The notes below the pieces were generated by a model that saw only the letters and a program-made list of their open reading frames with translations, searched no databases and was not told the DNA's origin. This document shows positions 12,799 through 43,833 of a DNA stretch of 64,000 nt, piece after piece. Source of the stretch: Babesia bovis T2Bo (taxonomy: Eukaryota; Apicomplexa; Aconoidasida; Piroplasmida; Babesiidae); contig NC_010575.1 in the NCBI RefSeq assembly GCF_000165395.2, positions 2,403,001 through 2,467,000 of the forward strand. Reading direction: 5' to 3'. Numbering within the stretch: the stretch's first letter is position 1; each line of letters opens with the position of its first letter. The translations under genes and the position numbers were made by a program.

Positions 12799-14040
12799 AT
12801 GGTAATTTTATATCTATTTTTACGTGTCATGTGTACATGGCGTGGCTTATTTCATAATGTTGCCCATGGAGTAACGCTAGACCTTGAGCAAGATCAGCCG
12901 CCAGCTGGAGTCGTGGTTTTGAAGGGTACATTCACCGGTAATGGACTATATCGACTGTTCTATTCAGATAGTGTACACATATCTGTAGTCACCTATGGAA
13001 GTAACATAGTTCCCATTACAGACAATATCCCACCAGAGTCAACAGAACTATATGTTCATGAATATCGGTGGGATGATAAAATCATAGTAGGTATCACAAT
13101 TAACTACGGCACAAGATCATCGCTATTTACTATATACTTTTTCAAGATTGAGAGAGAGTACCTCAAAGTGTCTGTTACACAAAAGCGCAAGCTTGTGCCA
13201 AACTATATATCAATACCACTAGATATTAGCATTCCACTTAAATCACCAATAATTTCATTTCTTGAGAATGTTAGCAACTCCACATTATCCAATTGGTACG
13301 TGGTGAATATCCATGACGAAGTTGCAAAAGGGTCTAATAATGGTCCTAAAATCGGCAATGATAGATATTTTATATCCCCGTTACTAAACGTAGAATCATA
13401 CGATGGTAATGGCAGGCCCCCTATGCTGGTATCACAAAGCACTAAAATACATATCCCACATAACCGTGAATACATAGTTATATGCATCGGTAAGAATAAT
13501 GCTATGCAACAAAAAGTAAAAATACCTCCTATAGTCAATGGCATTTTTACCCCCTTTAACATAATGGAATATAGCTACGATTATTCAAAAAGTAAATTAG
13601 GGTCGGGTTTAATTGACATTCAAAGACTGGTTATTGATATATCAAGTCAACGTGTAGAAACGCCTGATATAGTTCTGTTAGCCAACTTAAAAAGAGGTAG
13701 CTGGATATACCATCAATATGCAATTGCCCCAATCAGGCATTCTGGATACATGTACTCAGAGGTTGTCAACTCAGATGCTAAATGTTTTATATACAGAATA
13801 GAACCCCAAGAAGTGGTGACCCACGTAGAGGTGTTCGAGCACATTAGAAACGTGTGGCAATATGTTGTAGTGAATGTCCGAAAGTTGGGTACAAATAATA
13901 AGGGTGAAGCAGGTGAAACTAAACATATATACAAGCGCATAGAATCAGAAAATGGAAGAGTTTACTTTGACATTAAAAGCGTCTCCTTTGTTTTATTCTA
14001 TAATATGTTGTACAAAATACGAGTTGATGAAAACGTTTAG
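12799..14040 (+). CDS. Array gene 1: secreted piroplasm family protein
   Basis: First of ten tandem paralogs; 413 residues from the ATG at 12799 (context aacaATGg). Upstream in-frame ATGs at 12751 and 12760 are possible but would put extra polar residues before the hydrophobic signal segment (MVILYLFLRVMC). The family landmarks are GTFTGNGLYRLF near residue 33, YVHEYRWDD, PPIVNGIFTPFN in the middle, the RGSWIYHQY segment, and VVTHVEVFEHI with YVVVNVRKL near the end. It is the most divergent copy: it lacks the HPVI element and the Y-x-G-N...LW block. It belongs to clade A with genes 2 and 3. There is no membrane segment after the signal, so the product is probably secreted into the parasitophorous space or host cell. 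Function unknown. Confidence 0.8.
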   Translation: MVILYLFLRVMCTWRGLFHNVAHGVTLDLEQDQPPAGVVVLKGTFTGNGLYRLFYSDSVHISVVTYGSNIVPITDNIPPESTELYVHEYRWDDKIIVGITINYGTRSSLFTIYFFKIEREYLKVSVTQKRKLVPNYISIPLDISIPLKSPIISFLENVSNSTLSNWYVVNIHDEVAKGSNNGPKIGNDRYFISPLLNVESYDGNGRPPMLVSQSTKIHIPHNREYIVICIGKNNAMQQKVKIPPIVNGIFTPFNIMEYSYDYSKSKLGSGLIDIQRLVIDISSQRVETPDIVLLANLKRGSWIYHQYAIAPIRHSGYMYSEVVNSDAKCFIYRIEPQEVVTHVEVFEHIRNVWQYVVVNVRKLGTNNKGEAGETKHIYKRIESENGRVYFDIKSVSFVLFYNMLYKIRVDENV

Positions 14041-14855
14041 TAAGAACCCAAGAATGTGGATCTATAATGGTACAAAAGAATAAGTCCAGTTATGTGATAT
14101 AATTCATCCACTGAGTGAACTCTCGCTTTATCAGTTGATATTTTTTGCAGCAGAATAATAAACCTATGTTATGCTGATGTATTATCGTGCTCCAGGCAGT
14201 TCAATTATAACCGTACTCGGAGATGATGCAGTTTTAACATTGTTATAAGTCGCTATGATAACTAGTAAATGCCTACCTAACTTCCTCATGACGCAAATGC
14301 CATCAAGTTAAACACCTGGATATTATGGCACAATGTGATGTATCTAAGAATCTATGCTGAAGTGGATAAAAGTAGCTATACTTTCGTATATTTTCACAAG
14401 TGATATATGAACCGTCATTAGCAGTGATTTGAAGCTATGAAATTACTCAGAGTGTCAAAATTGCGTGAATCAAATACAAAATACTAATGTTAACGTTCAC
14501 TGCACAAACCGTAGTTATGTCAAAGCGTTTCAATAGCAAGATTTATAACACGTTGAAATGGAATTCTAGATGAAAGACGTATCTGTTGTTTACAAGAATA
14601 AACTGCCCAGACAACGAATTGATAGCTAGTTATATGAAATGACATAAAATTTACATGACGGTTGGCTGATAATAAATGCTATTAATAATCACTAACGTAG
14701 TATACTGTTGTCATTCATGATATGCATTGTTTGATAAATACTAAATTGTTAAATGTATCTTATAATGAATTAGAATGCCTCAGCCCTAGGAGTGAAATAT
14801 TGCATCACAATGTCCATTCTATTGACGGCTATACATTTTCTCTCCAATAAAAATT
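14041..14855. other. Array spacer 1-2
   Basis: An 815-bp AT-rich spacer, the longest in the array, without an open frame worth calling. A CATTTTCTCTCC stretch ~15 bp before the next ATG is a poor match to the shared upstream element. No gene relic seen. Confidence 0.45.
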
Positions 14856-16121
14856 ATGAATGATATATACAGTATTATAATTGTTTTTATGTCATTGTGG
14901 GCCTTGGGATTCAATAATTATGTGGAGGGAATTGAAATTGACATACGAGGTCCGATGACAAATGATACGGCGGTTTACACTGGTTCATTTAGTAATGGTG
15001 GTATATATCGTCTTATAAAACCACTTGGTTATGTATCACTTATTGTGTATGGCAATCAAGTTTTATATAACGCCGAGAACATGAAGGGTGCCAGAGTTGT
15101 GGGTGATATTTACATTGAAGATTTTAAGAGAGGAACACAAAGAACAATAGGCATAACCATATGTGAAGGAATTCGGCATTACTGTCTACGTAGGAGGTAC
15201 TATAGGGTCGCATACGATATGGTCCATATGATTAGATGGGATTTAAAATCCTATTTTTTGAAGGGGACTGTTAGTTTAGATATGGACCTTTCTAGTGAAT
15301 TTCATCATCCAGCAATAAACACTCACGAAATGAGAACCAATACATTACACAATAAATGGTATGTTGTTGACACTAATAAATTTGATCCATCGAATCCGTC
15401 ATTTCAAATGCCATTTTACGATGACTCATTCTGCATATCACATGTTTACAATATTGAACCACAATTGTTTCAACAATTACCGGCTTCTGTTCTCATAGCA
15501 AACGTTTCGAGGCTTGTTGTCTGTCACGGGAACGGTATGGTTTTGATAACATTAGATGGCAGCCCACAGAAAGTGTATACCGTTATAATACCTCCAATTA
15601 TAAACGGTATATTTAAACCAAGGAATGCATTGGAGGATCCACGCGATATAGCTAATATATATACATCTAATGGAATGTTACATTGTCTCATCCCAATAGA
15701 TATTTCAAGAACAATGAAACATCCAAACGATGTAGTAATATTGGCCAATCTACACAGGGGGGATTGGTTATATTCTCAATTTAGCATATATCCAATACGT
15801 CACCCAGGTCACTGTTCAGTAAAAGTCCTTAATATGGCTAGTAATTCAATTATATATAAAAGTCCAAATCGGCAAACAGTGGTTACTCATGTAGAAGTGT
15901 TTGATCATATAATACACAAATGGCAATACATTGTGGTGAACTACATCAAGTGGAATGGGTACAGGTTTGAAGAAAAACAGGACGCATATAAACGAATTGA
16001 GGATAAAACGGGTGTATATTATTATGACCTCAAAAAGTTCGTTCTTGAACCATACATCCAGCTGCTTTATAACATAGACACTGCCCAATCTATCTACAAG
16101 AATACAGCCCAGGCAGTTTAA
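14856..16121 (+). CDS. Array gene 2: secreted piroplasm family protein
   Basis: 421 residues, clade A. A signal peptide (residues 1-25, core IIIVFMSLWALGF) is followed by EIDIRG, the landmark GSFSNGGIYRLI (~44-55), YIEDFKRGTQR, FHHPAINTH in module 2, PPIINGIFKPRN (~245-256), an IDISRT module start, DWLYSQFSIYPIRHPGH, and VVTHVEVFDHI. The segment coding for the last motif is 52/53 identical in DNA to the same segment of gene 3 although the flanks have diverged, a gene-conversion signature. The protein ends in a short polar tail with no anchor. The start is the first ATG after an AT-rich leader and directly precedes the hydrophobic core, so it is secure. Function unknown. Confidence 0.85.
   Translation: MNDIYSIIIVFMSLWALGFNNYVEGIEIDIRGPMTNDTAVYTGSFSNGGIYRLIKPLGYVSLIVYGNQVLYNAENMKGARVVGDIYIEDFKRGTQRTIGITICEGIRHYCLRRRYYRVAYDMVHMIRWDLKSYFLKGTVSLDMDLSSEFHHPAINTHEMRTNTLHNKWYVVDTNKFDPSNPSFQMPFYDDSFCISHVYNIEPQLFQQLPASVLIANVSRLVVCHGNGMVLITLDGSPQKVYTVIIPPIINGIFKPRNALEDPRDIANIYTSNGMLHCLIPIDISRTMKHPNDVVILANLHRGDWLYSQFSIYPIRHPGHCSVKVLNMASNSIIYKSPNRQTVVTHVEVFDHIIHKWQYIVVNYIKWNGYRFEEKQDAYKRIEDKTGVYYYDLKKFVLEPYIQLLYNIDTAQSIYKNTAQAV
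15871..15923 (+). repeat. Near-identical tract shared with gene 3
   Basis: These 53 bases match 17816-17868 with a single difference (T/C), while the sequences on both sides differ at many sites. It encodes the VVTHVEVFDHIIHKW segment. It is best explained by recent gene conversion between neighbouring copies. Confidence 0.8.
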
Positions 16122-16803
16122 CACGACAATTCATGACGAAGAACAAGCATTAATGATGTGATTGAATGCAATTTTTGTCATAAGCAATATTTTAAAATTC
16201 GTTATGTTATGCACAGGTTTATAGATGAACATGTTTAAAATGCGTTATAACGATCCCACCTTCGCGCGAAAGGGTCAAATAACGTGAACAAACATGATCC
16301 ACACACACTATAAATCCTGAATAATGCCGTCTATCTAGTGTAGTATAATACCATAGCGACCTCCCAGTACATACACATATGTACCGCTGAAGGACCGGGT
16401 CCACAGTTCGTGAATGTTTTCGGATTGCGAAACTCTCTGGAATCTCTAACGCAACACTACCATTGACACCTTTTTGTGGGCAGCGGTTAATCATATGGAT
16501 CCCATTCTCGATTATTGTTTAGTAGCTAGCATAAAACAAAACCATCCAGTGGACAGTTTTAGTAATACACTCTACGAGTAATTTTGTTATGTCAAATATT
16601 GAGAAAAGCGAAACATATGGTTTAACTCATTTCCAATGCAATAATTATATAAATTTAGTGTATTCTAGCAATTATTTTGCATGGGTTAATGGCTCGTCTT
16701 CATTTAAGATGCAGAGAAATTCCTCGCTAGAACTTATCTTAAGGGTGGAAAATGCCATAATATTGTAATTTACGCAATGCTCACTACGTCATACTATTAC
16801 AAC
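16122..16803. other. Array spacer 2-3 with unusual insert
   Basis: Positions ~16250-16500 are visibly richer in G+C than the other spacers and hold a 91-codon ATG frame on the minus strand (16219-16494) with five Cys (CPQKG, YICVCTG, VCVDHVC). No homology is recognised and it is alone among the spacers. The shared upstream element GAGAAATTCCTCG is at 16714-16726. I do not call the frame a gene, but it is the spacer most worth checking for transcription. Confidence 0.4.
16714..16726 (+). promoter_or_regulatory. Shared upstream element, gene 3 copy
   Basis: GAGAAATTCCTCG, 77 bp before the ATG at 16804. It matches similar motifs 78-109 bp upstream of genes 4, 5, 6, 7 and 10. Confidence 0.4.
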
Positions 16804-18102
16804 ATGACTAATCGCAAAGTGACTCTTTTCATTAAAGCCCATATATGGGCTATATTGTGTTCCCTTTTCGTGCATTCCATTAAAATCGATTTACTTGATG
16901 ATAATTTTCCCCCGAATGTGAATGCCTACCATGGTAGCTTTCAAGAGGGGGGGCTATATCGTTTGATTCAATGCATTGATGTCGATTTAGATGCTGTTGT
17001 GTATGGGAATCTTCTGATTGCGAAGGTGCCTCAGGGTTCAGCTAGAGATATGTATGTTTACATAGAGGAATACAAAATACAGAGTAAAGTGATCATTTGT
17101 ATAACGTTTATAGATATGATTTTAGAAATTTGCAAAAGTAGAAGGTATTATAGGTATAAAATATTTGGATTTGCGGAGGCATCACATCAGATAATGAAGT
17201 CGGTTAAGGATCCCATATTTTTAGAAATTGATATGACGATGGAAAAGATGCATCATCAACTACGTTGTGAATTAAGACCAGAGGGTGAACATGGCGCACC
17301 ATGGTATTCGGTCCGTCCACAATATATAATAGGTAAAGACAATAGATTCAGATGCCGGCGGTTTGCTAGCAGGTTTCTTATATCTCAGATTTTGAATGTT
17401 GATTATAGAAATAATGGGATATATCCTCCTTCATCTTTAATTGGTTATTTTAAGGGCTTCTCCAGATCATGTAGTGAAGAGCATTGCATTGTTACCGTAC
17501 TGGACCAATATGAATTTATGTATGAAATCGTTATACCACCTACAATTAACGGGATTTTTAGACCCAGAAACATATATGAGACTATGGTTGAAATAGACCC
17601 ACATATGCAACGAAGATTATCTCCAGATAAAACATTGATTGAGATTGATATTTCATCTATTAAGCAGAATCGGGATGATCTAGTCATACTAGCGAACTTA
17701 AAGAGAGGCAAATGGCTTTATACTCAATATACAATAATACCGTACCGTTACCCCCTTTATGAAATTGCTTGCGTAATATCTACTGAAGATATATCTACCA
17801 TTTACTGTCCAACTGGGCAAACAGTGGTTACTCATGTAGAAGTGTTTGACCATATAATACACAAATGGAGGTACATTGTGATACATACAGTAAAATTCAA
17901 TGAAGGAAATGATATGAATGATTATGATATATATAAAAGAATTGATGATGAAGAAGGCGTTAAATATTTTGACGTTGGAAATAACTTTTGCAAAGAACCT
18001 TATATGTTAATGTTAAATAATATAAGCACGGAAGAAGGCGGTGACGAGGGATTACATACCGCATGTATGGGTCAAGTTCTCAATGTGACTACATCTGCAT
18101 GA
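16804..18102 (+). CDS. Array gene 3: secreted piroplasm family protein
   Basis: 432 residues from the ATG at 16804 (MTNRKVTLFIKAHIWAIL); an in-frame ATG at 16777 would add nine polar residues. I prefer the inner one because it leaves a standard signal peptide and places the upstream element at the same distance as in other copies. Clade A landmarks: GSFQEGGLYRLI, YIEEYKIQSK, PPTINGIFRPRN, IDISSI, RGKWLYTQYTIIPYRYP and VVTHVEVFDHI, the last inside the tract shared with gene 2. The usual HPVI is altered to HHQLRCEL. It has more Cys than its sisters and a longer, acidic and Gly-rich C-terminal tail (EEGGDEGLHT). There is no membrane anchor. Function unknown. Confidence 0.83.
   Translation: MTNRKVTLFIKAHIWAILCSLFVHSIKIDLLDDNFPPNVNAYHGSFQEGGLYRLIQCIDVDLDAVVYGNLLIAKVPQGSARDMYVYIEEYKIQSKVIICITFIDMILEICKSRRYYRYKIFGFAEASHQIMKSVKDPIFLEIDMTMEKMHHQLRCELRPEGEHGAPWYSVRPQYIIGKDNRFRCRRFASRFLISQILNVDYRNNGIYPPSSLIGYFKGFSRSCSEEHCIVTVLDQYEFMYEIVIPPTINGIFRPRNIYETMVEIDPHMQRRLSPDKTLIEIDISSIKQNRDDLVILANLKRGKWLYTQYTIIPYRYPLYEIACVISTEDISTIYCPTGQTVVTHVEVFDHIIHKWRYIVIHTVKFNEGNDMNDYDIYKRIDDEEGVKYFDVGNNFCKEPYMLMLNNISTEEGGDEGLHTACMGQVLNVTTSA
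17816..17868 (+). repeat. Near-identical tract shared with gene 2
   Basis: Partner of 15871-15923: 52 of 53 bases identical, within the coding sequence of the THVEVF motif. Confidence 0.8.
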
Positions 18103-18747
18103 TTGTAGTGGAAATTTTAAGGTCAGCTGTAAGTCTTAACACCCCAAAGGACGAGTACTAACAATCGATTGTGCAGATCTATTGACGCTAATACGTAAAA
18201 CAAAAAAAATTGAAAAGGCAGCTATCTACCTCCTGTCGTATTTAACCCGCAATATGGCATGCTAATATTTCCAATGTTATTTTAACTGTAAACATATACA
18301 TCTTCGAAGAATTATGTATATGAATGTAATGCTTATTAATCAATTGAGAATCCATGAAGTACCTGTATACAAAGGTTAACATATTGTATCATATGATAAA
18401 TAAATGTGTTTGAAGATTTTAATAATGGTTAAAATGTTACATTTCACCCTATATTTTTATAGGATTATACTGTTATTTATACGCAGCATTATCTCACCTA
18501 GTCTTATATATATACAAATTGTATACTTTTGCCTGTATACATTTATATGGCATCTTGGTATAACTATTTATAACCACTATTACCTATATTGACGTAATTA
18601 TTAGTTACTTGCTGCAGCGGTTGCATGAAAATTTTCCCAGTTACCAATTCAACATACGATGGTGTATCGTTAATATTAGAATCATAAACAATTTTATTTA
18701 CAACTCTCAAAAGTATAAATATACATACATCAAATAGTTAATTCAAG
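18103..18747. other. Array spacer 3-4
   Basis: 645 bp of AT-rich DNA. A 62-codon hydrophobic frame (18404-18592) is a product of base composition. The shared upstream element lies at 18626-18638. Confidence 0.45.
18626..18638 (+). promoter_or_regulatory. Shared upstream element, gene 4 copy
   Basis: TGAAAATTTTCCC, 109 bp before the ATG. It is preceded by GGTTGCA, as is the gene 10 copy (GGTTGCAAGAAAATTCC), so these two copies share a longer block. Confidence 0.4.
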
Positions 18748-19998
18748 ATGGTTTGCGTTGGTTGGTTTGGCTTTGCAATAAAGGTTGCATCAATACTATT
18801 GATATCGACAAGGTCGGTAGCCTCTTGGATTTTGGACCTTAATGAATCAGAATTTCCTGAGTTTGTTCAAGTAACTCATGGGACATTTAGTAATGGTGGT
18901 ATATACCGGATGATTCAAAGTCCAGCTAGGGATGTGATGTTCATTAAATCTCACCAGGTTTATTTGACTGGAATCAATCGTTCACCAAATAACGATGCAA
19001 TGGTATATGTGGAGGAATATAAACGTGATGAAAGGACGTTTGTTTCGGTTTTGTTTTACAAGTTCGCTAATTTGCTTGTTGAACGAAGATACTATGAGCC
19101 ACAAGGGTGCACTGTTGCATTTGTTAGTCGTTTTCAAGTGCAAAGTTTTGTGAATGGGCCGATCAATCTATGTATAGACCTTGAGATTGGCATGCATCAT
19201 CCAGTCATCGAACCAATGATTAATGTAGAAGATGGTCGACAAATCATTGCCGGGTACATAGGAAACAAAGTGTTGGACTTTCCTCCAGGTTCATTAGCTC
19301 GTGTTTGGTCTAAAGATTCGTACTTTCGTTTCATGCCGATCATAAACATTGATCCTCTAAGCAAATCACTTCACAATCCTCCATCGGCCTTAATAGGTTT
19401 TATCAATGGTTATTACCAAGATCCGGATTCAAAATACCTCGTTATCAACATAGAAGAGATACGTGATGTGGAGTATCGAGTTTGGATCCCTGGAATTGAC
19501 AATGGCACTTTCAAACCACAGAACATTTTGCAAAATCCACCTAAGATAAGCGTTCATGAGCCAAAACCTGTTGATGCCAGAGCGGTAGAAATAATAATCG
19601 ATATATCGCGTACCTCTAAACATGAACCTGATGTTCTAGCCATGATTAACTTAAGTAGAGGTGTATGGTTATATTCCCAATATACTATTCTTCCCATTCG
19701 TCATGTAGAGGACATGAATATCATCGTAGAAAATAGTGCCATGAAAACGGAAATATATCAGGTTGAAGATGATTATTTTATTACATATGTTGAAATATTC
19801 GAGCACATGCTATCTAATAATCGGTTCGTAGTGGTAAACATGAGGAAGCTGGAGTCTCCATTTATGTCCGACACTAGAAAAGTATTCAAATACAACTGGG
19901 ATGTTAATAATCCAGCCTATACAGAGATCTTAGGACAAGAGCTAGATGCTTGCATTGCGATCATAACAAACATAAAATCCTTAGAACCTATTTTCTAG
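18748..19998 (+). CDS. Array gene 4: secreted piroplasm family protein
   Basis: 416 residues, clade B, and the clearest copy for reading the module plan. A signal peptide covers residues 1-26. Module 1 (~28-115) starts ILDLNE and contains GTFSNGGIYRMI (45-56) and YVEEYKRDERT. Module 2 (~138-250) starts NLCIDLE and contains HHPVIE (150-155), YIGNK...RVW (170-187), and PPSALIGFINGYYQ. Module 3 (~280-395) starts IIIDISR and contains RGVWLYSQYTILPIRH (304-319), FITYVEIFEH and VVVNMRKLESP. Each module opens with a hydrophobic-Asp-hydrophobic strand, as FAINT/DUF529 modules do. Cys are few and not conserved, so disulfides are unlikely to define the fold. The start has the context caagATGg, also seen at gene 10. 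Confidence 0.87.
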   Translation: MVCVGWFGFAIKVASILLISTRSVASWILDLNESEFPEFVQVTHGTFSNGGIYRMIQSPARDVMFIKSHQVYLTGINRSPNNDAMVYVEEYKRDERTFVSVLFYKFANLLVERRYYEPQGCTVAFVSRFQVQSFVNGPINLCIDLEIGMHHPVIEPMINVEDGRQIIAGYIGNKVLDFPPGSLARVWSKDSYFRFMPIINIDPLSKSLHNPPSALIGFINGYYQDPDSKYLVINIEEIRDVEYRVWIPGIDNGTFKPQNILQNPPKISVHEPKPVDARAVEIIIDISRTSKHEPDVLAMINLSRGVWLYSQYTILPIRHVEDMNIIVENSAMKTEIYQVEDDYFITYVEIFEHMLSNNRFVVVNMRKLESPFMSDTRKVFKYNWDVNNPAYTEILGQELDACIAIITNIKSLEPIF

Positions 19999-20611
19999 AA
20001 TATTTGGCAAATCTTCTACATATATAAAGTTGGGCGGTTATATCAAGAAGACTTGGGGGTTCTTATAACTCAGAAATCATAATAATTATATAACGTGAAA
20101 CTCACATAACTATTCCTAGTATCTATAGATTCAATTTTTGTCAATAATGGGAACATTTTACCACGTCATAAATCGTTCAGCCCACGGTTAACAAATGTAG
20201 GAATATAGTATCTATCAAATATATGAAACAATAGGATTTACTTTGTGATAGAATTATCTAATAGTGCATGATGCATTAGTGAATGGAATCTCTGCAGTAT
20301 TATGAAATATTTTGTAACCGGCATTATGGCACTATATGTAATGAAGCTAGGTGATTATTATTACATCGTAGAGTCTATTGAATTGTTTAACCTATGGATA
20401 AATGTCATTTAAATTGCTCGAATAGCGTAAAAACAACAACTTAGAAAAGGCTAAAGAAAACAGGGCTAGTACTAGCTATTCATTTTCATTTACCATATCT
20501 CTGTGGAATTCTCTCCGTAATATGATCAAATTTATTCTCTATAAAATTGGGAATGTTTTAATATGTTAAATAGGCGTTAATTTATACTATTTTAATTTCA
20601 CACTTACTTAT
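19999..20611. other. Array spacer 4-5
   Basis: 613 bp, AT-rich, no frame worth calling. A GGAATTCTCTCCG element occurs at 20505-20517. Confidence 0.45.
20505..20517 (+). promoter_or_regulatory. Shared upstream element, gene 5 copy
   Basis: GGAATTCTCTCCG, 94 bp before the ATG; one of six related motifs in the array. Confidence 0.4.
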
Positions 20612-21847
20612 ATGATGGTAGTTAGCCTACGTTGTAATCTAGTTTTTACTTGTCTATTGATCATATTTATAGAAACATTAGATAGCCGATTATTTGACGT
20701 TGAATATGCTGAACTATATCACGATATACATGCAGTAGGTTCATTTCGTGATGGTGGTGTATACTATCTGTTCCATGCAACTTCGGATAAAGCCCGTTTA
20801 ATTATGTATGGCCAAACTTTCCTTTATTCATCGTTTTCTTATGGAAATACAATAAATGATATCTATGTGGAGAAGTTCCGTCGTTCTGACGAAGAGATAA
20901 TTGGCATAACTATTTGTAGCCAATTTTCATTCAATCGTTTTGTTAAAATGTATTTCTGTTTATTAGATGGCAATTGGTTTCCTACTACTTCTGAAGATAA
21001 GAATTCATTTGTTGGTGGCCCTTTGAATTTACAGATGGATATGGAAAGATGGGAGGTACACCCAATAATAGACGCTAGGATTATCATGAGAGGTAATGCT
21101 GCTATACTCTACTATATAGGGAACGAGCAGCCAGACAATCGTGAATCTACTAGGAGTCAACTATGGGCGGATGATGGAAATTTCTTGATATCACCAATAT
21201 ATAATTTTGAAAAAATATCTCGATTATCTGGTGACCTGCCCTCCTCCTTAATTGCACCTATTACAAGTTTTTATCAAAATCTGAACGAGAATACTATGAC
21301 AATTACTCTGGATAAAACAGGAAATCGTGAATACGTACTTAAGGTTGTACATGCCAATACGAAATGTGGGCAAAGTAGAAATATAATCACCGATTTACCG
21401 AAAATCGGTGTGAATGCTCCAAACCTGGTTGCTAACAGATCGCAAAATATAGTTATTGATATAGCAGAAGCATATTTTCAACCGTCAAATATGGTGATAT
21501 TTTGCAGATTTAAGAGAGGTGGCTGGACATATTACCAACATAGCATATTACCAATACATGAAGTCAACGACATGGATATAAAAGTCATCGATTCAGATAC
21601 TCACACTGTTATATACCACAATACGGATGACGAATTCATTACATATATTGAAGTATTTTTCCATAGAAGGACTAAAATGCGGTACGTGGTAGTAAACATC
21701 AAGCGTCTTGTCGAACCTGGTATCGATACATTGAACATTTATGAATTTAAGAGTGGCACTACACAGCAATATGTAAAAGTGGAGCCAACAAATGTTCGTT
21801 ACGTTCAAGAAATTCTATGCACCATATACAATGACTCGCGTGCCTAG
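20612..21847 (+). CDS. Array gene 5: secreted piroplasm family protein
   Basis: 411 residues, clade B, the shortest copy. A signal peptide (core LVFTCLLIIFIETL) is followed by GSFRDGGVYYLF, YVEKFRRSDEE, HPIIDARII, YYIGNEQPDN...LW, PSSLIAPITSFYQ and TGNREY, then IVIDIAEA, RGGWTYYQHSILPIHE, and FITYIEVFFH with YVVVNIKRL. Where most copies have a PP...NGxFxPxN linker, gene 5 has KCGQSRNII, which resembles the linker of gene 6 (CGAAASRNMI), so the two look like a sister pair. There is no C-terminal anchor. The start is the first of two adjacent ATG codons (ATGATGG); either may be used. Function unknown. Confidence 0.86.
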   Translation: MMVVSLRCNLVFTCLLIIFIETLDSRLFDVEYAELYHDIHAVGSFRDGGVYYLFHATSDKARLIMYGQTFLYSSFSYGNTINDIYVEKFRRSDEEIIGITICSQFSFNRFVKMYFCLLDGNWFPTTSEDKNSFVGGPLNLQMDMERWEVHPIIDARIIMRGNAAILYYIGNEQPDNRESTRSQLWADDGNFLISPIYNFEKISRLSGDLPSSLIAPITSFYQNLNENTMTITLDKTGNREYVLKVVHANTKCGQSRNIITDLPKIGVNAPNLVANRSQNIVIDIAEAYFQPSNMVIFCRFKRGGWTYYQHSILPIHEVNDMDIKVIDSDTHTVIYHNTDDEFITYIEVFFHRRTKMRYVVVNIKRLVEPGIDTLNIYEFKSGTTQQYVKVEPTNVRYVQEILCTIYNDSRA

Positions 21848-22501: not shown

Positions 22502-23863
22502 ATGAAGCTTCCCTTTATTTTTAGGACTTTGTTTAAATGTGGTATAGCACTATTGCTGTCATCAATAAGTAATGTTTCGTGTGATATATTTGATTATAGT
22601 AATTACATTGATATAAACGATGAGTACATACCTTCTTATGTAGATGTAGCGTATGGAACAATCCCTAATGGCGGGGTTTATAGATTTCTTCATACTACTA
22701 CTGATTACGTGATTCGCGTTAAAGCTGGGAAACTAAATTTGACTACAATTATGCTAATAAACAATATTCCCGCTGATATATTTGTGGAGGAGTTTATCAG
22801 GGATGACAAAGAAGTCGTAACTATAACATCATATGGTAAATCGATTCTTTATAACATGGAACGACTTTTCGTCGAGTTATCATCTAACGAGTGTAAATAT
22901 ATAACACAAGAAGAGCGAGATGACTTTGTAGGAGGACCTGTGATGTTACGCACGGACTTACTTGAAAAGTACATGCATCCTGTTATAGATTCTACAATTA
23001 CGTCACGTGATGGGCGGTTGACTATATTATATTCCGTTGGCAACAAGGGGTACGATAAAAAAGAATCCTCTTTTAGTTTTTTGTGGTACAACCAATTAGA
23101 TTTCATTATATCTCCACTCCTAAATATTGATGGTGTAAGCCGGATGGCCATGGGTAAAGCTGTTATGCTAACATCACGTATTACATCGTTCCTCCCTCAG
23201 GTGAGGCAGAACGGTATTATATTTACTATAGACAAAACCGGTGATCGTGAATACTTTTTGAAAATGGTACCAAGTGATTGTGGTGCTGCAGCAAGTAGGA
23301 ATATGATAAGCGAATCTGTTAAAATAGGCCAAATATTACCGATACCTGCAATGGATCGCCCTGACACTGTGATAATGGATATATCCATGGAAACAGAACC
23401 ATCGTTCGATGTGGTAGTACTAGATAACGTGAAAAAAGGCAACCTGTTGCTTTATGGTCAACAGTCATTCCTGCCGATACGCGAGGTACAAAATCTATAC
23501 GTCAAAATTCGCGATGTTAGTAACGATGCTGATATATACAGTGTAAAGGACGATGAGTTTATTGCCTACGTTGAAAAATTCTATAGTTCCGGTACAATTA
23601 TGTACGTTACTGTAAACACAAAGAAGTTAGAGTCACCCGATGGTGCAGAAACTCGTATTATATTTAAGAACGAAAACGTGGATGGCATTGTCCACTATAG
23701 GGAGATAGGTGACGATGAGTTCGAGAGTTACAACAGCTTGGTCTACGATATATATAGAATATGGCCTGTACAGCATGAAATTCCTACCCATTTACGAGGA
23801 TTAGATATGTCAGAAATATCTCCACTAATCACAGTAGCATACGAAACAGGGTTCGGGGTGTAA
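22502..23863 (+). CDS. Array gene 6: secreted piroplasm family protein
   Basis: 453 residues, the longest copy, clade B. A signal peptide (FKCGIALLLSSISNVSC) precedes GTIPNGGVYRFL, FVEEFIRDDKE, HPVIDSTIT, YSVGNKGYDK...LW and TGDREY. A Cys-containing linker similar to that of gene 5 follows, then VIMDISME, GNLLLYGQQSFLPIRE, and FIAYVEKFYS with YVTVNTKKLESP. The THVEVF motif has degenerated to AYVEKF. About 30 extra residues follow the usual end point (HEIPTHLRGLDMSEI...), giving this member a unique tail without membrane character. The start ATG follows an A-rich leader. Function unknown. Confidence 0.86.
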   Translation: MKLPFIFRTLFKCGIALLLSSISNVSCDIFDYSNYIDINDEYIPSYVDVAYGTIPNGGVYRFLHTTTDYVIRVKAGKLNLTTIMLINNIPADIFVEEFIRDDKEVVTITSYGKSILYNMERLFVELSSNECKYITQEERDDFVGGPVMLRTDLLEKYMHPVIDSTITSRDGRLTILYSVGNKGYDKKESSFSFLWYNQLDFIISPLLNIDGVSRMAMGKAVMLTSRITSFLPQVRQNGIIFTIDKTGDREYFLKMVPSDCGAAASRNMISESVKIGQILPIPAMDRPDTVIMDISMETEPSFDVVVLDNVKKGNLLLYGQQSFLPIREVQNLYVKIRDVSNDADIYSVKDDEFIAYVEKFYSSGTIMYVTVNTKKLESPDGAETRIIFKNENVDGIVHYREIGDDEFESYNSLVYDIYRIWPVQHEIPTHLRGLDMSEISPLITVAYETGFGV

Positions 23864-24479
23864 TGTATTGGAATGCATGTTCTAACATAGTATTCCCTAC
23901 AGATCACAATAATGTGTGTGCAAAAGCACAACACTACAATAAGAAACCTGTTTAATTGTTACCTATATTGCACGGTTTGATAATAATTTTATTGATATTT
24001 TTTCATCATTGCAGAATCCTGTTGCTGAAATGAATCGAAATGATTCCAACCTCATTCTGGCGGCTACGACGTCTATCTCCACCTATCTTCTACGTAACAC
24101 TATCCAGATTAAACTGTAACGCATGTGAGCTAATATCCAAACAATTCAGATAGTTCCATCGAGTTTAATGGATTTTGAAGAATATATATTTATGACATAT
24201 GTGCCTTTTTTGCATTCTAGACACTTTTGCAGTTCTATTTGTATTAAGAAACTATTGTTTTTTTATTTATTGGTATAATATTTGACACATGATTTACCCT
24301 GCTGTGACCATGTGGCACCTTTAAGCGACGATGAGAATCACTTACCTCCATTTTACAACCTATTTATGAGACGCTTTGAACGAAAATTCCTCGACATTTC
24401 ACACTAAAGGGACGAACCCAATTTCCATGAAACTGCCTTCCTGAATGACACCGATTATATAGTATCATGCTTTCGGAAG
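23864..24479. other. Array spacer 6-7
   Basis: 616 bp without a gene. The shared element is at 24381-24393. A 63-codon minus-strand frame overlapping the end of gene 6 is a shadow. Confidence 0.45.
24381..24393 (+). promoter_or_regulatory. Shared upstream element, gene 7 copy
   Basis: CGAAAATTCCTCG, 86 bp before the ATG; the closest match to the consensus GAAAATTCYYTCG. Confidence 0.42.
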
Positions 24480-25754
24480 ATGATTCCCCTTCTTAATATT
24501 CCTTTGGCGTTAACTTCCGTCACGTTTTTGTTATCGTCTTTTCAACCGGCTAACGCTCGTGTTTTAGATGTATCAAAGACGAACTTTTCTGAACAAATCA
24601 ATGTTTATGATGGAACTTTTAGTGATGGTGGAGTATATCGTTTGATCTATACAAGGTCCCCAGGGACAACCGATATTCATTATGGTGATGCGTTTATAAC
24701 ATCTGTAAAGGTCCGAGGGTCAATGAACACTGATATATATGTAGAAGTATTCAAACGCCGCGGCACCACACTGATATCCATAACCACAGCTAGTGATTCA
24801 TCATGCTTCGTTGACAATAGAGAAAACTGGGAAGTATCCAGCTCAGGAATAACCTCTAGATCACGTCTTGAAAAACAGCAATTCATCAGTGGCCCGGTGA
24901 TGATAGAATTAAACAGAAATGTAGCCAATAGACACCCGGTGATTGAAACCCAGAATCTGATGGTGGAGGGTAATGAGGAAGTGTGGTTTTACCTAGGTAA
25001 CAGACGGCGCCATGACAGTGCAGCGATGAGGAGCAACATATGGCTTCACGAAACAAACTTCATTATATCTCGTGTGACTAACATCGATGCTTATACTCAA
25101 CTTGTGGGAGGTCCAAAGTCGGCCCTAATAGCCAACGCCATAGCATTTAAACAGACGAATGATGAATCGATGATAACGATTAGGGTTCCCAGAACGCGTG
25201 GAAAGCAATTTGTTCTACATGTACCACCAACATTGGACGGTTATTTTAAACCCGAACATATAATATGGGATAAACCAAAAGTCAGGGAACGGAGCCCTGC
25301 ACCACTCCATGAAAGAATATTTGACATTGTGATTGATGTGTCAAATAAATTGACCCCTACATATGATATGGTAATATTGACCGACTTTGTTAGAGGTCCA
25401 TGGAACTATAGTCAGCATACATTTTTACCAATACGTTTTATGGACGATATGAACGTCAAAGTAAGGAATGTAGAAAGAAACATAACAATTTTTGAAATTC
25501 GACCAAGAGATTTCATAACTTATGTCGAAGTTTTTCATAATCGTGAAACCGCAGAGGAGTATGTCCTTATCCATACTAGGTCACTCTTCATGCCGGAAGG
25601 ACCTGACAAGATTCATTGCTATATATACGTGAAAGAGGATAGTTACAAACATGGCAAGTATATATTAATGGATCTCATGGAAGACTTTGAGAAAATAAAT
25701 ATGTTCAAAAGAATTCCGACTGCTACACCATATGACTTCCCTTGGGATTATTAG
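24480..25754 (+). CDS. Array gene 7: secreted piroplasm family protein
   Basis: 424 residues, clade B. Signal peptide (LALTSVTFLLSSFQPANA), then RVLDVSKT, GTFSDGGVYRLI, YVEVFKRRGTT, HPVIETQNL, FYLGNRRRHD...IW, PKSALIANAIAF, PPTLDGYFKPEH, IVIDVSNK, RGPWNYSQHTFLPIRF, FITYVEVFHN and YVLIHTRSL. The end is rich in acidic and aromatic residues (TPYDFPWDY). In place of the KLExP motif of its sisters it has SLFMPEG, and the charged D-REY strand is replaced by RGKQFVLHVPP. There is no anchor. The start lies a few bases after a purine-rich ggaag, and no earlier in-frame ATG keeps a signal peptide. Function unknown. Confidence 0.86.
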   Translation: MIPLLNIPLALTSVTFLLSSFQPANARVLDVSKTNFSEQINVYDGTFSDGGVYRLIYTRSPGTTDIHYGDAFITSVKVRGSMNTDIYVEVFKRRGTTLISITTASDSSCFVDNRENWEVSSSGITSRSRLEKQQFISGPVMIELNRNVANRHPVIETQNLMVEGNEEVWFYLGNRRRHDSAAMRSNIWLHETNFIISRVTNIDAYTQLVGGPKSALIANAIAFKQTNDESMITIRVPRTRGKQFVLHVPPTLDGYFKPEHIIWDKPKVRERSPAPLHERIFDIVIDVSNKLTPTYDMVILTDFVRGPWNYSQHTFLPIRFMDDMNVKVRNVERNITIFEIRPRDFITYVEVFHNRETAEEYVLIHTRSLFMPEGPDKIHCYIYVKEDSYKHGKYILMDLMEDFEKINMFKRIPTATPYDFPWDY

Positions 25755-26437
25755 TATTATAGACAATATTTTCTTGTACATTTACTCCATATAATATTCG
25801 AACATGTAAATTATCTTGTTCAATTTATGTATGATCTTCATCAATCAGATTGGTTGGGCAACTTCATTGCAAATTAAGGCACAACAAAAATGAACTTTTT
25901 ATTGTTTTCCTTTACCAAGTACATTGATATAAATATACATAGATTAATACTTGCTAGTTTAACGAATATGAATTATTATACTTAACTACATTAGCATTCC
26001 ATATACACTATTGAATAACTTCACTATAATATGAACAGGTAAACGTTGGATAGCGGGGATTATATCTTCAACAGAAACCCACGTACCATTTCTATGTATG
26101 ATTTTAACAAAATAATTTTAATATAGATTGTTTAGAATTTTTATTCATAAGACCACTATTGCAATGCCTAGGAATAATTTTGACTTATTACTGTTATAAA
26201 ATTTGGCTACCTTACAAAAAAATATGCTTGAATGCATCGCAATAAATCATACTATCAATTCAAGATTGTTTGCAATATTTATTAGTATATTGTTGTTTCC
26301 TATGTAGGAAAACGGATAATAAAATTTTTATTCACTGTTAGAGGTACTAGAATGCAAATAATGTAATATAAATTAATTGGCTAGTTTTGTCTAATTTTCA
26401 AAATCTATTTAATTGAATAGCAACATATTTTTTGGAA
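25755..26437. other. Array spacer 7-8
   Basis: 683 bp, very AT-rich, no open frame. The shared upstream element was not found here, so gene 8 may be controlled differently or the motif has decayed. Confidence 0.45.
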
Positions 26438-27715
26438 ATGGAGATTTGTCATATGTTCGGCATTCGAACAATATTGTGCCTAACATGTTGGTTATTTATA
26501 ACATTTTCACAATGTCTTCCTTTTGATATTGACAAGAGTGAATTCACCCGTGATGTACAAGTCATTCACGGCCATATAAATTATGGTGGCACTTACAGAC
26601 TTCTTCAGACTACCACCCGGGTAGCGTCAGCTGTCGTTTTCGGGGCTTTGAAGATTAGTCGGCCATTCATGCACGGTACAGCTACATCACATGTATTTAT
26701 AGAAGAGTGGAAGCGTGACGATACGTGGTTGATAGGTGTTACATATTATGGCAACTCTATTTTCGGTCGGGTTCAACGGACATATGTCGTGAAGTACATG
26801 AGAACTACGTATAGAATATCTAGGAGTATGAAGAACAATTTTCTTAGAGGTCCTGTAATGATTCGTATGGATATGTCATCTGGTTGTGTACATCCTGTCA
26901 TTGATTCTAAAATTGTATTTAATGGAGGTAAACCTACTATTTGGTACTATGTTGCTAATAAGATACCTCACCATAACAATTCATCTTTTAGCAAGTTATG
27001 GTCCAATGATAACGACTTTCTTATATCTCCTATTGTCAACATAGATGCTGCATCTCGAGTAACAGGTTATGGTCCATCTTCTTTAATAGGGCATATATCT
27101 GGATTTTCACAGTTTGACGATGGACACACAATACAAATAACTCTTGGACGTACGGGTGACCGCATATATACATTGCATATTCCTCGGAATCACGAACGCA
27201 TTTTCACTCCTATGTGCATTGTGAAAGACCTAACCATTATAGGTACCAATCAACGCATCCCTGCTGGTTCTAGGCCTATAAAGATTGTGATAGATATATC
27301 TAAGAAAGAAGGACCCTCAGGTGATGTCGTGATTTTATCGAATATACGGCGTGGTGAATGGAACTATTCGCAGCATGCTATACTCCCATTACGTAACATG
27401 GAAGAGATTGATGTAAGCGTAAAACATGTAGGGCGTGGATGTGACATATACGATGTCAAGGATGACGAAATAGTAACGCATGTTGAAATATTTAAGGAAG
27501 AGTTCGACATCTTGGTGTATGTGGTGGTGAATACTAAAATGTTAGAGAACCCATCTATTGAAAGACAATACGTTTTTAAATACAACAACAGTTTGTCTTC
27601 ACCAGCTTACTCCCTTTTAGATGACGTACAAGGGAAGGAAGCTTTAAGGAAGTTATGTAGAATATTCACTTTACTTCCCGATGATTTAAGCGACCTTCAT
27701 GTGCCGTCTGAATAG
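26438..27715 (+). CDS. Array gene 8: secreted piroplasm family protein
   Basis: 425 residues from the ATG at 26438 (context ggaaATGg). A signal peptide (RTILCLTCWLFITFSQC) precedes FDIDKSE, GHINYGGTYRLL, FIEEWKRDDTW, HPVIDSKIV, YYVANKIPHH...LW, PSSLIGHISGFSQ, TGDRIY, IVIDISKK, RGEWNYSQHAILPLRN, and VTHVEIFKE with YVVVNTKMLENP. The first landmark is atypical: an Ile-Asn pair replaces the Phe-Ser found in most copies. The tail is acidic (LLPDDLSDLHVPSE). Clade B; no anchor. Upstream it lacks a clear copy of the GAAAATTC element. Function unknown. Confidence 0.86.
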   Translation: MEICHMFGIRTILCLTCWLFITFSQCLPFDIDKSEFTRDVQVIHGHINYGGTYRLLQTTTRVASAVVFGALKISRPFMHGTATSHVFIEEWKRDDTWLIGVTYYGNSIFGRVQRTYVVKYMRTTYRISRSMKNNFLRGPVMIRMDMSSGCVHPVIDSKIVFNGGKPTIWYYVANKIPHHNNSSFSKLWSNDNDFLISPIVNIDAASRVTGYGPSSLIGHISGFSQFDDGHTIQITLGRTGDRIYTLHIPRNHERIFTPMCIVKDLTIIGTNQRIPAGSRPIKIVIDISKKEGPSGDVVILSNIRRGEWNYSQHAILPLRNMEEIDVSVKHVGRGCDIYDVKDDEIVTHVEIFKEEFDILVYVVVNTKMLENPSIERQYVFKYNNSLSSPAYSLLDDVQGKEALRKLCRIFTLLPDDLSDLHVPSE

Positions 27716-28255
27716 ACTTTGTTGGTCCACTTAGTTATCTTCTTTACTTTCTAGACAATTACGCAATTCGATTCGATAAGCAATTAAGTATTTTATATTT
27801 TAAAAGTTCACCGAACCCTATAGCATGTTACTCCAAAAGTTATATACATAGAGAATTTTTTTGGAGGCGTATGTATGATGGATGGGTGACTTTCATCGCT
27901 CAGTGGACCACCACTTCAGTTTAAGCAAACATTTTCTTTAGACTTTGCTCAGGGGTCATATAACATTGGATAAACGATGCTATCTTGCAGTAACCGCTGA
28001 TAAAATTGTCTTCTCGGAGGCAAGTTGTATATTACGTAATTAAAATATTGTATAAATTCCCCAAAGAACTACAACTCTATAAACAGCCATAGCTTAATGA
28101 GACATATGTAGGATTCTTTGGAGATTTATGTGATCAATGATATTTCATATTGGGAATGATTAAAATGTCAAGTAGGAATTTTCAACTGGCTAGCTTGGGG
28201 AGACACGGACTGAAGACATTGCAAATGATTTAGAACAATTAAGCAGAACTTTAAG
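27716..28255. other. Array spacer 8-9
   Basis: 540 bp, the shortest spacer, no frame worth calling. AGGAATTTTCAAC at 28174-28186 is a weak, partial match to the shared upstream element. Confidence 0.45.
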
Positions 28256-29524
28256 ATGGCAATTTTCAAGTTCTTTATAACCATACTTATGGTTTGCAGT
28301 ATATACATCCGGTTGATTAGTGGTATAGAATTGAATTTAAATAAACTGGAGTTCTCGGAAAATGTACGACAGGCATACGGTTATTTCCCGCAGAATGGGC
28401 ACTATCGTTTGCTTGATGTAGAGAATGATAAGCACGTCAGTATAATGTTTGCCCACCAATTGTTAAGCTCACCTACACTTATTGGTCAACCTGTAGTTCG
28501 TATATATGTTGAGGAGTTTCGTCGTTATAAAAGGTATCTATTAAGGATAACTTATGTTGGCGATGCCGTATCAGAGGTGGTTAAGACTATACACCTAGAG
28601 AAACATGATGAGGTTGTATATCTGTCTTCCCACGAAACTTTGATGAATTTTGTAAATGGCCCTATTAGGATTGCAATGGATTTTAATTATGACTACATCA
28701 ATCCAGTGATTGATTATTATATTGAAACTACAAGAGGCAATCCATCCATTAAATATTTAGTGGGTAACGAACTTCCGAACGATGAAGAAAGCTCACATAG
28801 TCGTTTATGGTACGGTAAGGGTGAGTTCATTATATCTCCCATTAAAAATTTTGACAAGTTCTCATCCATGCTTGGTGGACCGACAACCTATATTATTGGT
28901 TCAATTACAAGTATTACTCCGTATAGAGATATTAATATCATATATATAACTGTAAGCGGAAGAGGTGACATGGAGTATAAGTTATACATTCCACCTGCCA
29001 ACCTTGATGTGTTTCAGCCAAGAAATATGTTGACGAATGAGGATCATTCACAGTGGCCTTTGTTATATGGTGCTGCATCCGAGATTAGGCATATTGTTAT
29101 TGATATATCCCGTAAGACGTTCCCTGATAAAAATGTCGTGGTTGTTGAAAACTTGCGCAGGGGTGACTGGATATACGGTCAGCATTTACTCTTACCAGGT
29201 CACAACCTTGGCCACGTATCCGTTGAGGTGAAGCATGTACACGTAGGCATCGATATATACAAGTCGCCAGAAAATGAAAAAGTAACACATGTTGAGATAT
29301 TTAAATATGTAGTGGAGCCGTTGACTTATGTGGTTGTCAATGTTCTTGATCTATCAGTTACTGGGTATCCGGTTATCCGTCATGTATTCCAATTCAACAA
29401 CAATATAACATCCCCTGGTTATAAACTTGTTGTTCTACCTGATTTGAAAGAATGCCTAGATAACTTGTACAATATCCCAACAGCTGCTACTGGGTTGGAC
29501 TACGACGAGTACCGCCTTTTTTAA
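28256..29524 (+). CDS. Array gene 9: secreted piroplasm family protein
   Basis: 422 residues, clade B. A signal peptide (FFITILMVCSIYIRLISG) is followed by IELNLNKLE, GYFPQNGHYRLL (the usual GG pair is NG), YVEEFRRYKRY, NPVIDYYIE, YLVGNELPNDE...LW, a module 2 strand ITSITPYRD, PPANLDVFQPRN, IVIDISRK, RGDWIYGQHLLLPGHN, and VTHVEIFKY with YVVVNVLDL. The first landmark is among the more divergent, and the PIR motif after the third-module tryptophan is lost. It ends with a Tyr/Asp-rich tail. The start context taagATGg is like those of genes 4 and 10. Secreted, unanchored, function unknown. Confidence 0.86.
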   Translation: MAIFKFFITILMVCSIYIRLISGIELNLNKLEFSENVRQAYGYFPQNGHYRLLDVENDKHVSIMFAHQLLSSPTLIGQPVVRIYVEEFRRYKRYLLRITYVGDAVSEVVKTIHLEKHDEVVYLSSHETLMNFVNGPIRIAMDFNYDYINPVIDYYIETTRGNPSIKYLVGNELPNDEESSHSRLWYGKGEFIISPIKNFDKFSSMLGGPTTYIIGSITSITPYRDINIIYITVSGRGDMEYKLYIPPANLDVFQPRNMLTNEDHSQWPLLYGAASEIRHIVIDISRKTFPDKNVVVVENLRRGDWIYGQHLLLPGHNLGHVSVEVKHVHVGIDIYKSPENEKVTHVEIFKYVVEPLTYVVVNVLDLSVTGYPVIRHVFQFNNNITSPGYKLVVLPDLKECLDNLYNIPTAATGLDYDEYRLF

Positions 29525-30076
29525 TTTCAGCAGAGATATTGTAAACGTTACACGATGAATATGGTACCGAATACATCAAATGCATATCTAATAAGCTTAT
29601 AAACGTTATGGAATTATAGTTATCATTATGGCTTTTACATATCTGAAGTTATAGATTCTACACTATTATGTTGTAGAGTTAAATACGGCAGTGTCATTTT
29701 GTATTTCACGTTTTTTGCGGTTACTAGTTGAACAATTATATAATGATTAATACGACAATATATTAAGGTGTCCAACTAGCCTTTTTCGTTGAGTCATTCC
29801 TGTTATTTTGAAAATATTATGTCTACTGTTCTTTATCCGGTTCTTATATGTAGTCACTTTTTTTTATTAATATCAAGACTTTGATATCATATATAGTATT
29901 ATTAAAATGTTTCTTGTTATATATTTTACATTCATTTTTGTCTCTTCAGCATTTTATCTTCACCATGTGCATCAGTGGTTGCAAGAAAATTCCTTTTGTC
30001 TCATTACTTCATGCAAGCCTTAAATATATAAATTCCTAGTATATCTTCATTAAATGTTTTACCATATAGTATCAAG
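29525..30076. other. Array spacer 9-10
   Basis: 552 bp, AT-rich, no gene. A copy of the upstream element, preceded by GGTTGCA as at gene 4, lies at 29983-29998. Confidence 0.45.
29983..29998 (+). promoter_or_regulatory. Shared upstream element, gene 10 copy
   Basis: AAGAAAATTCCTTTTG, 78 bp before the ATG, with a GGTTGC block directly upstream as at gene 4. Confidence 0.4.
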
Positions 30077-31345
30077 ATGGCGTTTTCATCAATGTTGACA
30101 AACGTTTATATACTGTTGCTTTGCTTTTATAAAATCTATTCCGGCGTTCATTGTCGCGTTCTTGATTTTGGGAGCGATGCCTCGGAGGACGAAATTAGCC
30201 GATACTCTGGCACTTTCAACAATGGAGGCATATATCATCTTCTATACACGAAGTCTGATACGATAACTAGGGTGAAGTATGGTATATTTGAGATGGACGT
30301 CCCCAAATTTTCTAGTGGTATGACAGATATATTTGTGGAGTTAATGAGTCGTGGTACGATAACTATGTTTGTGTCAGTTACTTTTGTTGGTGCTAATATT
30401 TCAGAGGAGCATGAGCGGGTGTATATGGAATTGTCTATTAATGGTGTACGATCCGTTAGCAAGCTTGCCAAGGATTTTTTTGTTGATGGATTTATTTCAT
30501 TAAAGCTAGATTTGTCAACTGCCGATACTCACCCGCTAATACACCGAAAAATGGCTACACGCGACAACAAGGACTATAATTGGTATTACCTTGGCAATCG
30601 TGCTGAAGATTCTGAGGAGCATGCATTAAGTCGTTTATGGTTTGATGAAAAATACATCATATCACCTGTTACTAACATTGAGAGTTCATCTAGTATTGTC
30701 TATGTTCCGCCCAATTCACTGTATGGGCACATTACAGGTTTTATGTATGTATTTGATGAGGATTACATTGTTATAACGGTTTCGGATACAGGTGATCGAG
30801 AATACATTTTAAACCTACCTCCCGGTAATCATGATTTCTTAATTCCTATAAATATGCTGCATTCATATCCTAAGTATCACAAGCTTTTGCCATCTCCAGC
30901 GGCTAGACGTCCCATTCACATTGATATAGACGTTGCTCGATTTTCTCCGCAGAATCCCAATGTTGTGACTTTGACCAACTGCAGGCGACTACAGTGGTAT
31001 TACAACCAGTATACTATTTTACCTATAAACAATGTGGAGAACATATCGGTTCGTGTGTTCGATGCCTTTTTAATGGCTGAGATTTACACTGTAAAGGAAC
31101 ACGAATTTGTTACGTTTATTGAATTATTTGTTCATTCAACCAACAACGAATCATTTGTTATAGTCCACACTCGAGATTTGGAGGAGCCACTGTCAGCTGA
31201 CAAGCATTGGGTTTTTAAGAGGCATACTTCCGGGCATCAGGCACGCTATGTTGAGCAAATCGGCGTCAATTATGAGAGATCGTTACGACGTATATACAAG
31301 TGGTGGCCTCAAGTACCTACTTGGGCGTACAATCGTCGATGTTAG
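30077..31345 (+). CDS. Array gene 10: secreted piroplasm family protein
   Basis: 422 residues, last copy of the array, clade B. A signal peptide (YILLLCFYKIYSGVHC) precedes RVLDFGSD, GTFNNGGIYHLL, FVELMSRGTIT, HPLIHRKMA, YYLGNRAEDS...LW, PNSLYGHITGFMY, TGDREY, IDIDVARF, LQWYYNQYTILPINN, and FVTFIELFVH with FVIVHTRDLEEP. Here the RGxW motif is changed to LQW, so the small residue before the tryptophan is not essential. The C-terminus is Trp-rich (WWPQVPTW) and ends in Cys. The gene is followed after 188 bp by the convergent VPS13-like gene, which marks the end of the array. Function unknown. Confidence 0.86.
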   Translation: MAFSSMLTNVYILLLCFYKIYSGVHCRVLDFGSDASEDEISRYSGTFNNGGIYHLLYTKSDTITRVKYGIFEMDVPKFSSGMTDIFVELMSRGTITMFVSVTFVGANISEEHERVYMELSINGVRSVSKLAKDFFVDGFISLKLDLSTADTHPLIHRKMATRDNKDYNWYYLGNRAEDSEEHALSRLWFDEKYIISPVTNIESSSSIVYVPPNSLYGHITGFMYVFDEDYIVITVSDTGDREYILNLPPGNHDFLIPINMLHSYPKYHKLLPSPAARRPIHIDIDVARFSPQNPNVVTLTNCRRLQWYYNQYTILPINNVENISVRVFDAFLMAEIYTVKEHEFVTFIELFVHSTNNESFVIVHTRDLEEPLSADKHWVFKRHTSGHQARYVEQIGVNYERSLRRIYKWWPQVPTWAYNRRC

Positions 31346-43724: not shown

Positions 43725-43833
43725 ATGTTGTAATTATATCTACCTTTAGCAGCCTTTGTTCGTGTATTTCGCTGCAGTGGTGTTAAGTATACCAGATTGA
43801 CCTTCCGGCGAGACGAAACTTTATTTATCTACA

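Follow-up and report, generated by a model that had tools for sequence, protein, structure and literature searches.

In a 64,000-nucleotide window of Babesia bovis T2Bo chromosome III (C3:2403001-2467000), positions 12751-31345 carry an array of ten consecutive plus-strand open reading frames (ORFs) of 411-453 residues. We analysed these genes and searched the organism's own 8.23-Mb genome for their relatives; positions without a contig prefix (C1 to C5) refer to the window. We see an even chance that the ten genes represent a secreted family of soluble, nearly all-beta proteins which B. bovis shares with a close relative, and which grew by old tandem duplication and probably faces the host or the tick. 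Slightly short of even, in our judgement, is a wider proposal: an undescribed secreted superfamily of two-domain, nearly all-beta proteins in B. bovis and Babesia sp. Xinjiang, with 31 intact short forms plus a B. bovis array of five long forms, fourth by size after ves1, smorf and mtm, whose fold would either lack a match in the PDB or be distantly akin to FAINT, and with one branch co-duplicating with sbp2t, some copies of which rise in attenuated strains.

The array consists of ten intact and diverged genes

The initial annotation of this DNA described ten same-strand, single-exon genes spaced 1.8-2.1 kb apart. Our ORF list bears this out: gene starts lie 1818-2105 b apart, intergenic gaps measure 540-815 b, all ten frames are uninterrupted, and no further ATG-started ORF of at least 150 residues lies inside the array. 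That the genes are intronless is read from the open frames of the DNA alone. At this base composition, the probability that a random frame of 411 codons is free of stops is about 4e-14, and identity at the first, second and third codon positions is 0.42, 0.52 and 0.32 across the 45 array pairs, the second position being best kept and the third least. Taken together, the open-frame odds and the codon-position identities indicate that the array genes are coding and are not decayed copies. Pairwise protein identity is 18-34%, which marks the array as old.

Gene 1 (12751..14040) encodes 429 residues when read from its first ATG. An in-frame ATG at 12799, where the initial annotation begins the array, would give 413 residues with a hydrophobic N-terminus, which the 403-residue database version, read from 12829, does not have; we regard the database start as doubtful. 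Genes 2 (14856..16121, 421 residues) and 3 (16777..18102, 441 residues) are followed by genes 4 (18748..19998, 416 residues), 5 (20612..21847, 411 residues), 6 (22502..23863, 453 residues), 7 (24480..25754, 424 residues), 8 (26438..27715, 425 residues), 9 (28256..29524, 422 residues) and 10 (30077..31345, 422 residues). The G+C content in 2-kb bins is 0.34-0.37 at 12001-30000, where the array lies, and 0.36-0.49 in the remaining window. We looked for a motif common to the upstream regions of the ten genes (at most 600 b each), and no k-mer was conspicuous: the top 6-, 8- and 10-mers stayed within the null maximum, and ATATTTT, the top 7-mer, is AT-rich and preceded nine genes against a null maximum of eight.

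The array proteins are predicted to be secreted and soluble

Secretion signals and anchors were called from hydropathy only, as means over 19 residues. By this measure, every one of the ten proteins has a hydrophobic N-terminus (maxima 1.47-2.33) and none has a strongly hydrophobic C-terminal segment (at most 1.06). Beyond residue 60 the strongest segment reaches 0.81-1.44 in nine proteins; in gene 3, a hydrophobic stretch inside the protein near residue 101 scores 1.75 and is ambiguous. The signal peptide without anchor that had been proposed initially is thus supported as a prediction, with gene 3 as the ambiguous case. With an N-terminal signal segment, no tail anchor and diverged paralogs, the proteins fall into the broad class of secreted piroplasm multigene families. 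The same hydropathy profiles led us to reject membership of mtm or another family with multiple transmembrane segments: according to passages of PMC7561165, mtm products have ten such segments and their genes neighbour ves1 and smorf, whereas each array protein shows a single hydrophobic segment at its N-terminus, to which gene 3 adds the ambiguous second one.

We also considered whether the N-terminal segments are uncleaved anchors, in which case the products would be type II membrane proteins, located at the surface or in the endomembranes of the parasite, and would play an ordinary internal role. The helix modelled at residues 2-24 of gene 8, the long N-terminus of gene 1 if read from 12751, and the labelling of one dispersed paralog in the database as 'putative integral membrane protein' all point that way. 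Yet a conserved beta domain follows the N-terminal hydrophobic segment, hydropathy past residue 60 does not exceed 1.5 in nine of the ten proteins, and 18-34% identity is unusual for housekeeping paralogs, which makes this explanation rather improbable to us.

A fixed order of motifs, as claimed in the initial annotation, is indeed kept across the alignment of the array proteins, which has 12 invariant columns. The quoted motifs themselves are less general. Searched as regular expressions anywhere in the ten proteins, G-x-[FIY]-x2-[GN]G-x-YR[LMF] and RGxWxYxQ occur in eight each, HPx[IV] in seven, LW and Y[IV]V[VI][NH] in six each, YVEEF-like strings and VTHVE[VI]F in five each, and exact TGDREY in two (genes 6 and 10), while GN, found in all ten, is trivial.

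The array is part of a larger family that includes long forms

Own-genome searches with three family proteins yielded 36, 35 and 38 matches, which were merged by hand into 34 places on five contigs for the short form: the ten of the array, 14 on the rest of C3, five on C4, three on C2 and one each on C1 and C5. The array, making up less than one third of this total, is real, and the extent of ten genes given initially understates the family. Full-length intact ORFs stand at 31 of the 34 places; of the other three, C2:178787 is interrupted by an in-frame stop, C3:1259514 is a partial copy open over 280 residues, and C3:1196937 is N-terminally short. The C1 member has a C-terminal extension and reaches 673 residues.

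Searches with two diverged members further revealed a second tandem array, on the minus strand at C5:499558-523701, of five long paralogs with open frames of 778, 847, 898, 791 and 793 residues; a long-form paralog from C5 matches array gene 7 (E value 3.1e-7). Three of the five were read from their first ATG (784, 788 and 830 residues). In each of these three, the N-terminal profile of the family matches the start (independent E values 2e-10 to 1.4e-13) and the C-terminal profile matches the end (1.5e-5 to 2.6e-9), all above every decoy in a set of 66 sequences including decoys; the middle profile matches none of them, and a long stretch separates the two domains. Since the N and C profiles match and the middle profile does not, we regard the N- and C-terminal domains as conserved modules and the middle as replaceable. 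Their separation in the three long forms fits two separately folding binding modules.

We tested whether the N-terminal, middle and C-terminal parts are copies of one unit, which shuffle and decoy tests did not support. When the parts were compared by hhalign, shuffled profiles scored as high in 9 of 60 cases for N against C, 7 of 60 for middle against C and 8 of 60 for N against middle. Against the middle part, the N profile in reverse outscored the real one (17.7 versus 11.6), and self-comparison revealed no repeat. On the N halves, the C profile exceeded the 5% shuffled line in 3 of 37 sequences, compared with 2 of 36 reversed ones, and on the N domain of the three long forms it gave 1.2-3.8 bits.

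Family history suggests old tandem duplication, with other copies in larger repeated units

A tree of 37 family proteins groups genes 4-10 (support 99/95), genes 2 and 3 (99/96) and genes 8 and 9 (99/94). Genes 4-10 have as their sister the gene at C3:2489296 (99/92), which lies downstream, some 55 kb beyond the array, and together with genes 2-10 forms a group supported at 91/90; gene 1 is placed among the dispersed members without a resolved position, apart from genes 2-10. With end branches at a median of 1.27 changes per site, deep placements are unsure. Genomic neighbours tend to be relatives in the tree, and within the array divergence rises with distance (r 0.53, a value reached in 48 of 10,000 permutations). 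At C3:2487320-2490594, some 53-56 kb downstream of the array, two family genes lie together, one of them weakly placed near dispersed members and the other with genes 4-10.

Elsewhere on C3, family copies take part in larger duplication units. At C3:1387821-1405953 (1.39-1.41 Mb), they alternate with genes whose N-terminus is of the ARRNNGFRKVAKWI type, the repeated unit spanning about 4.8 kb, and three of the family copies are 99-100% identical; comparable pairs occur at 1.19-1.26 Mb. Of the four units at 1.39-1.41 Mb, three have a 105-residue ORF ahead of the family gene, as is again the case at C3:1203245. We read the ARRNNGFRKVAKWI-type neighbours as sbp2t genes, on the basis of published clusters and tag spacing only (passages of PMC7701181, PMC3826834 and PMC5848574). 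The sbp2t-linked family copies give ratios of nonsynonymous to synonymous substitution rates (dN/dS) of 0.14-0.46 over 15 pairs, the lowest of which rests on three differences. At C3:959012-973626, a 5.1-kb unit is present three times; it carries a family member together with copies, complete or shortened, of another gene, which starts with MKCARCNERPPTL.

By sequence, the family itself does not belong to sbp2t: the family profile scored at best -2.4 bits against 11 SBP2-type ORFs, and the N-terminus is distinct. An affiliation with the truncated spherical-body proteins, named in the initial annotation, is accordingly not supported. The two families are alike in forming tandem clusters on chromosome III, where sbp2t-type genes alternate with dispersed family members; sbp2t differs in its N-terminus, shows no profile similarity, and has no ORF of its type within the window array.

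Sequence and model comparisons with FAINT proteins

We next asked whether the family is a very divergent FAINT (DUF529) branch, built of strings of FAINT-like beta units like SBP3. SBP3 and the array family share several features: both are secreted, without anchor, intronless and beta-rich, as predicted for the array family, and the SBP3-like gene of B. orientalis is intronless according to a passage of PMC5870374. SBP3 differs in passing the PF04385 cut-off of 20.7 bits (76.8 bits) and in its 1089 residues with a cysteine-rich region. PF04385 matched none of the ten array proteins and none of 11 further relatives (5 + 6) at an E value of 10. As a positive control, the genome-wide search found SBP3 (38.5 and 27.6 bits) and one 378-residue ORF, below the cut-off at 19.6 bits, which we take to be SBP4; these three matches were the total, and none lay at a family place. 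When the family profile was compared by hhalign with one built on SBP3 from three species, the score was reached in 15 of 60 column shuffles. The best alignment covered 83 columns at SBP3 199-281, a stretch not known to be one of its Pfam FAINT matches. Single-profile hmmsearch in both directions stayed within the shuffled and reversed decoys, the top match being a shuffled sequence. FAINT membership, which the initial annotation had raised, is thus not supported at the level of sequence by any of the four approaches.

We then modelled array gene 8 with AlphaFold2 from a 16-sequence alignment. The model has a mean predicted local distance difference test (pLDDT) score of 83.9 and a predicted template modelling (pTM) score of 0.82; after a signal-like helix at 2-24 it consists mostly of strands and is nearly all-beta. 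No PDB match was convincing, nor was any viral one. In the N-terminal part, the modelled strands (E) lie at 65-68, 71-74, 83-93, 96-105, 112-120 and 123-127 and are followed by a helix (H) at 129-136; in the C-terminal part, E324-330, E335-339, E344-354, E360-368, E375-383 and E390-393 precede H396-407. An SBP3 model shows E821-828, E831-835, E843-852, E855-863, E869-878 and E883-887 followed by H892-903, a strand order like that of both gene 8 parts. However, the mean pLDDT of the SBP3 model is 35.1, too poor for structural comparison, and SBP3 821-903 only partly overlaps the best Pfam FAINT match (789-862). Given also that no internal repeat of the N and C parts rises above decoys, we think a divergent FAINT branch unlikely, though it deserves a hearing; a fold common to the family and FAINT is possible, as judged from the models.

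Relatives in other species and in the literature

Protein searches returned Babesia only, consistent with the piroplasm origin suggested initially. A search with the family profile gave eight proteins, five from Babesia sp. Xinjiang and three from B. bovis, of which two are array genes; a search with a single protein gave two, one of them the query, again from B. bovis and Babesia sp. Xinjiang. The profile search relies on shared five-residue words and returned only two of the ten array proteins and, of the 21 intact members that B. bovis has elsewhere, one. Because it missed most of the known B. bovis members, it supports only weakly the claim, in itself likely, that the family is lineage-specific, although no other species was returned.

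The B. bovis families named in the passages available are ves1 (133 genes), smorf (44), mtm (44), tpr-related (7), the SBPs and sbp2t, and those passages do not describe the window family. Smorf and mtm resemble it in being expanded in the B. bovis lineage, smorf being compared by description; mtm is common to B. bovis and Babesia sp. Xinjiang according to a passage of PMC9477259. Theileria SVSPs are likewise a lineage-specific secreted multigene family. They are described as subtelomere-encoded and as carrying the FAINT domain, as stated in passages of PMC4413850 for the latter; in contrast, the array has no FAINT match and lies at an internal site, its end being about 159 kb from the contig end by coordinates. 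We therefore reject SVSP-type membership.

No paper on the inferred array tags was found in the texts searched, which do not include supplements or the B. bovis genome paper, and none on six inferred tags between sbp2t genes in the texts searched. A broader literature search gave no description of the family either, and a description outside the texts searched is possible.

Genomic surroundings of the array

The array is flanked by conserved genes, as noted in the initial annotation. Upstream lie a class II (D/K/N) tRNA synthetase and then a major facilitator superfamily (MFS) transporter (10906..11940, plus strand; MFS_1 match PF07690, 6.5e-12). Downstream, a large minus-strand ORF of 3622 residues (31534..42402) has no Pfam match at 1e-3; by eye its start resembles VPS13/chorein. 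Beyond it follow a CCCH zinc-finger frame (42615..43733, minus strand) and an RNA polymerase subunit. The zinc-finger frame contains the match (43175-43194) of a primer published for znfp2, BBOV_III011400 (passage of PMC10877833). Counting back from znfp2 with one tag per gene, the array tags would be about BBOV_III011290 to BBOV_III011380. The BBOV_III0111xx genes named in the literature are taken to lie outside the array, and an ABC-transporter primer has no match in the window.

Discussion

Parasites often use signal-peptide-led soluble beta proteins in many diverged copies at the host interface. We propose that a locus already holding diverged copies gave rise to the array by repeated tandem duplication, possibly in layers: first a gene 1 resembling the dispersed members, next the pair 2-3 and last genes 4-10. 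The proteins would enter the secretory route via a cleaved signal peptide and may be released from the parasite, either by a spherical-body or dense-granule type of route or constitutively. Their conserved N- and C-terminal beta domains might then attach to partners, whether in the infected red cell or in cells of the tick, with the paralogs holding the framework constant and varying the surface.

Where such proteins act bears on a further alternative, namely that they serve mainly in the tick, in the kinete, gamete or sporozoite, as secreted or surface ligands and not in the bovine red cell. Kinete-high members are reported in other B. bovis families, including some ves1, smorf and GCC2/GCC3 genes (passages of PMC7701181), and the array contains no further large ORF and stops some 159 kb short of where the contig ends. 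On the other hand, the sbp2t-interleaved branch lies among genes reported in blood stages: passages of PMC5848574 describe the sbp2t family as transcribed there and copy 11 as probably secreted. We consider a mainly tick-stage role unlikely.

Several observations weigh against the proposal of a secreted, host- or tick-facing family. No consistent RxL/RxxL motif occurs in the first 100 residues, and genes 2, 3 and 4 have none. Given the membrane label on a dispersed paralog, the N-terminus may act as an anchor in some of the proteins. At C3 0.96 Mb, dN/dS in the trio is 0.96-1.45 (three pairs, 8-15 synonymous differences), indicating that constraint is not uniform. The linkage to sbp2t belongs to other branches and not to the window array, and the incomplete protein search may have missed relatives in other species. 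Finally, use in the red cell is a prediction, to which use in tick stages is the alternative.

The known exported proteins of B. bovis come mostly from a few multigene families, as passages of PMC7561165 have it. The family reported here has no name, known fold or job among the data searched. Its growth is of the usual type of parasite family expansion, and we regard it as a moderate surprise. The genes that we read as sbp2t share their duplication unit with a second type of gene, which matters for the use of sbp2t expression as an attenuation marker. B. bovis is a major cattle pathogen, and about 30 predicted secreted proteins now stand as candidates for a host- or tick-facing role.

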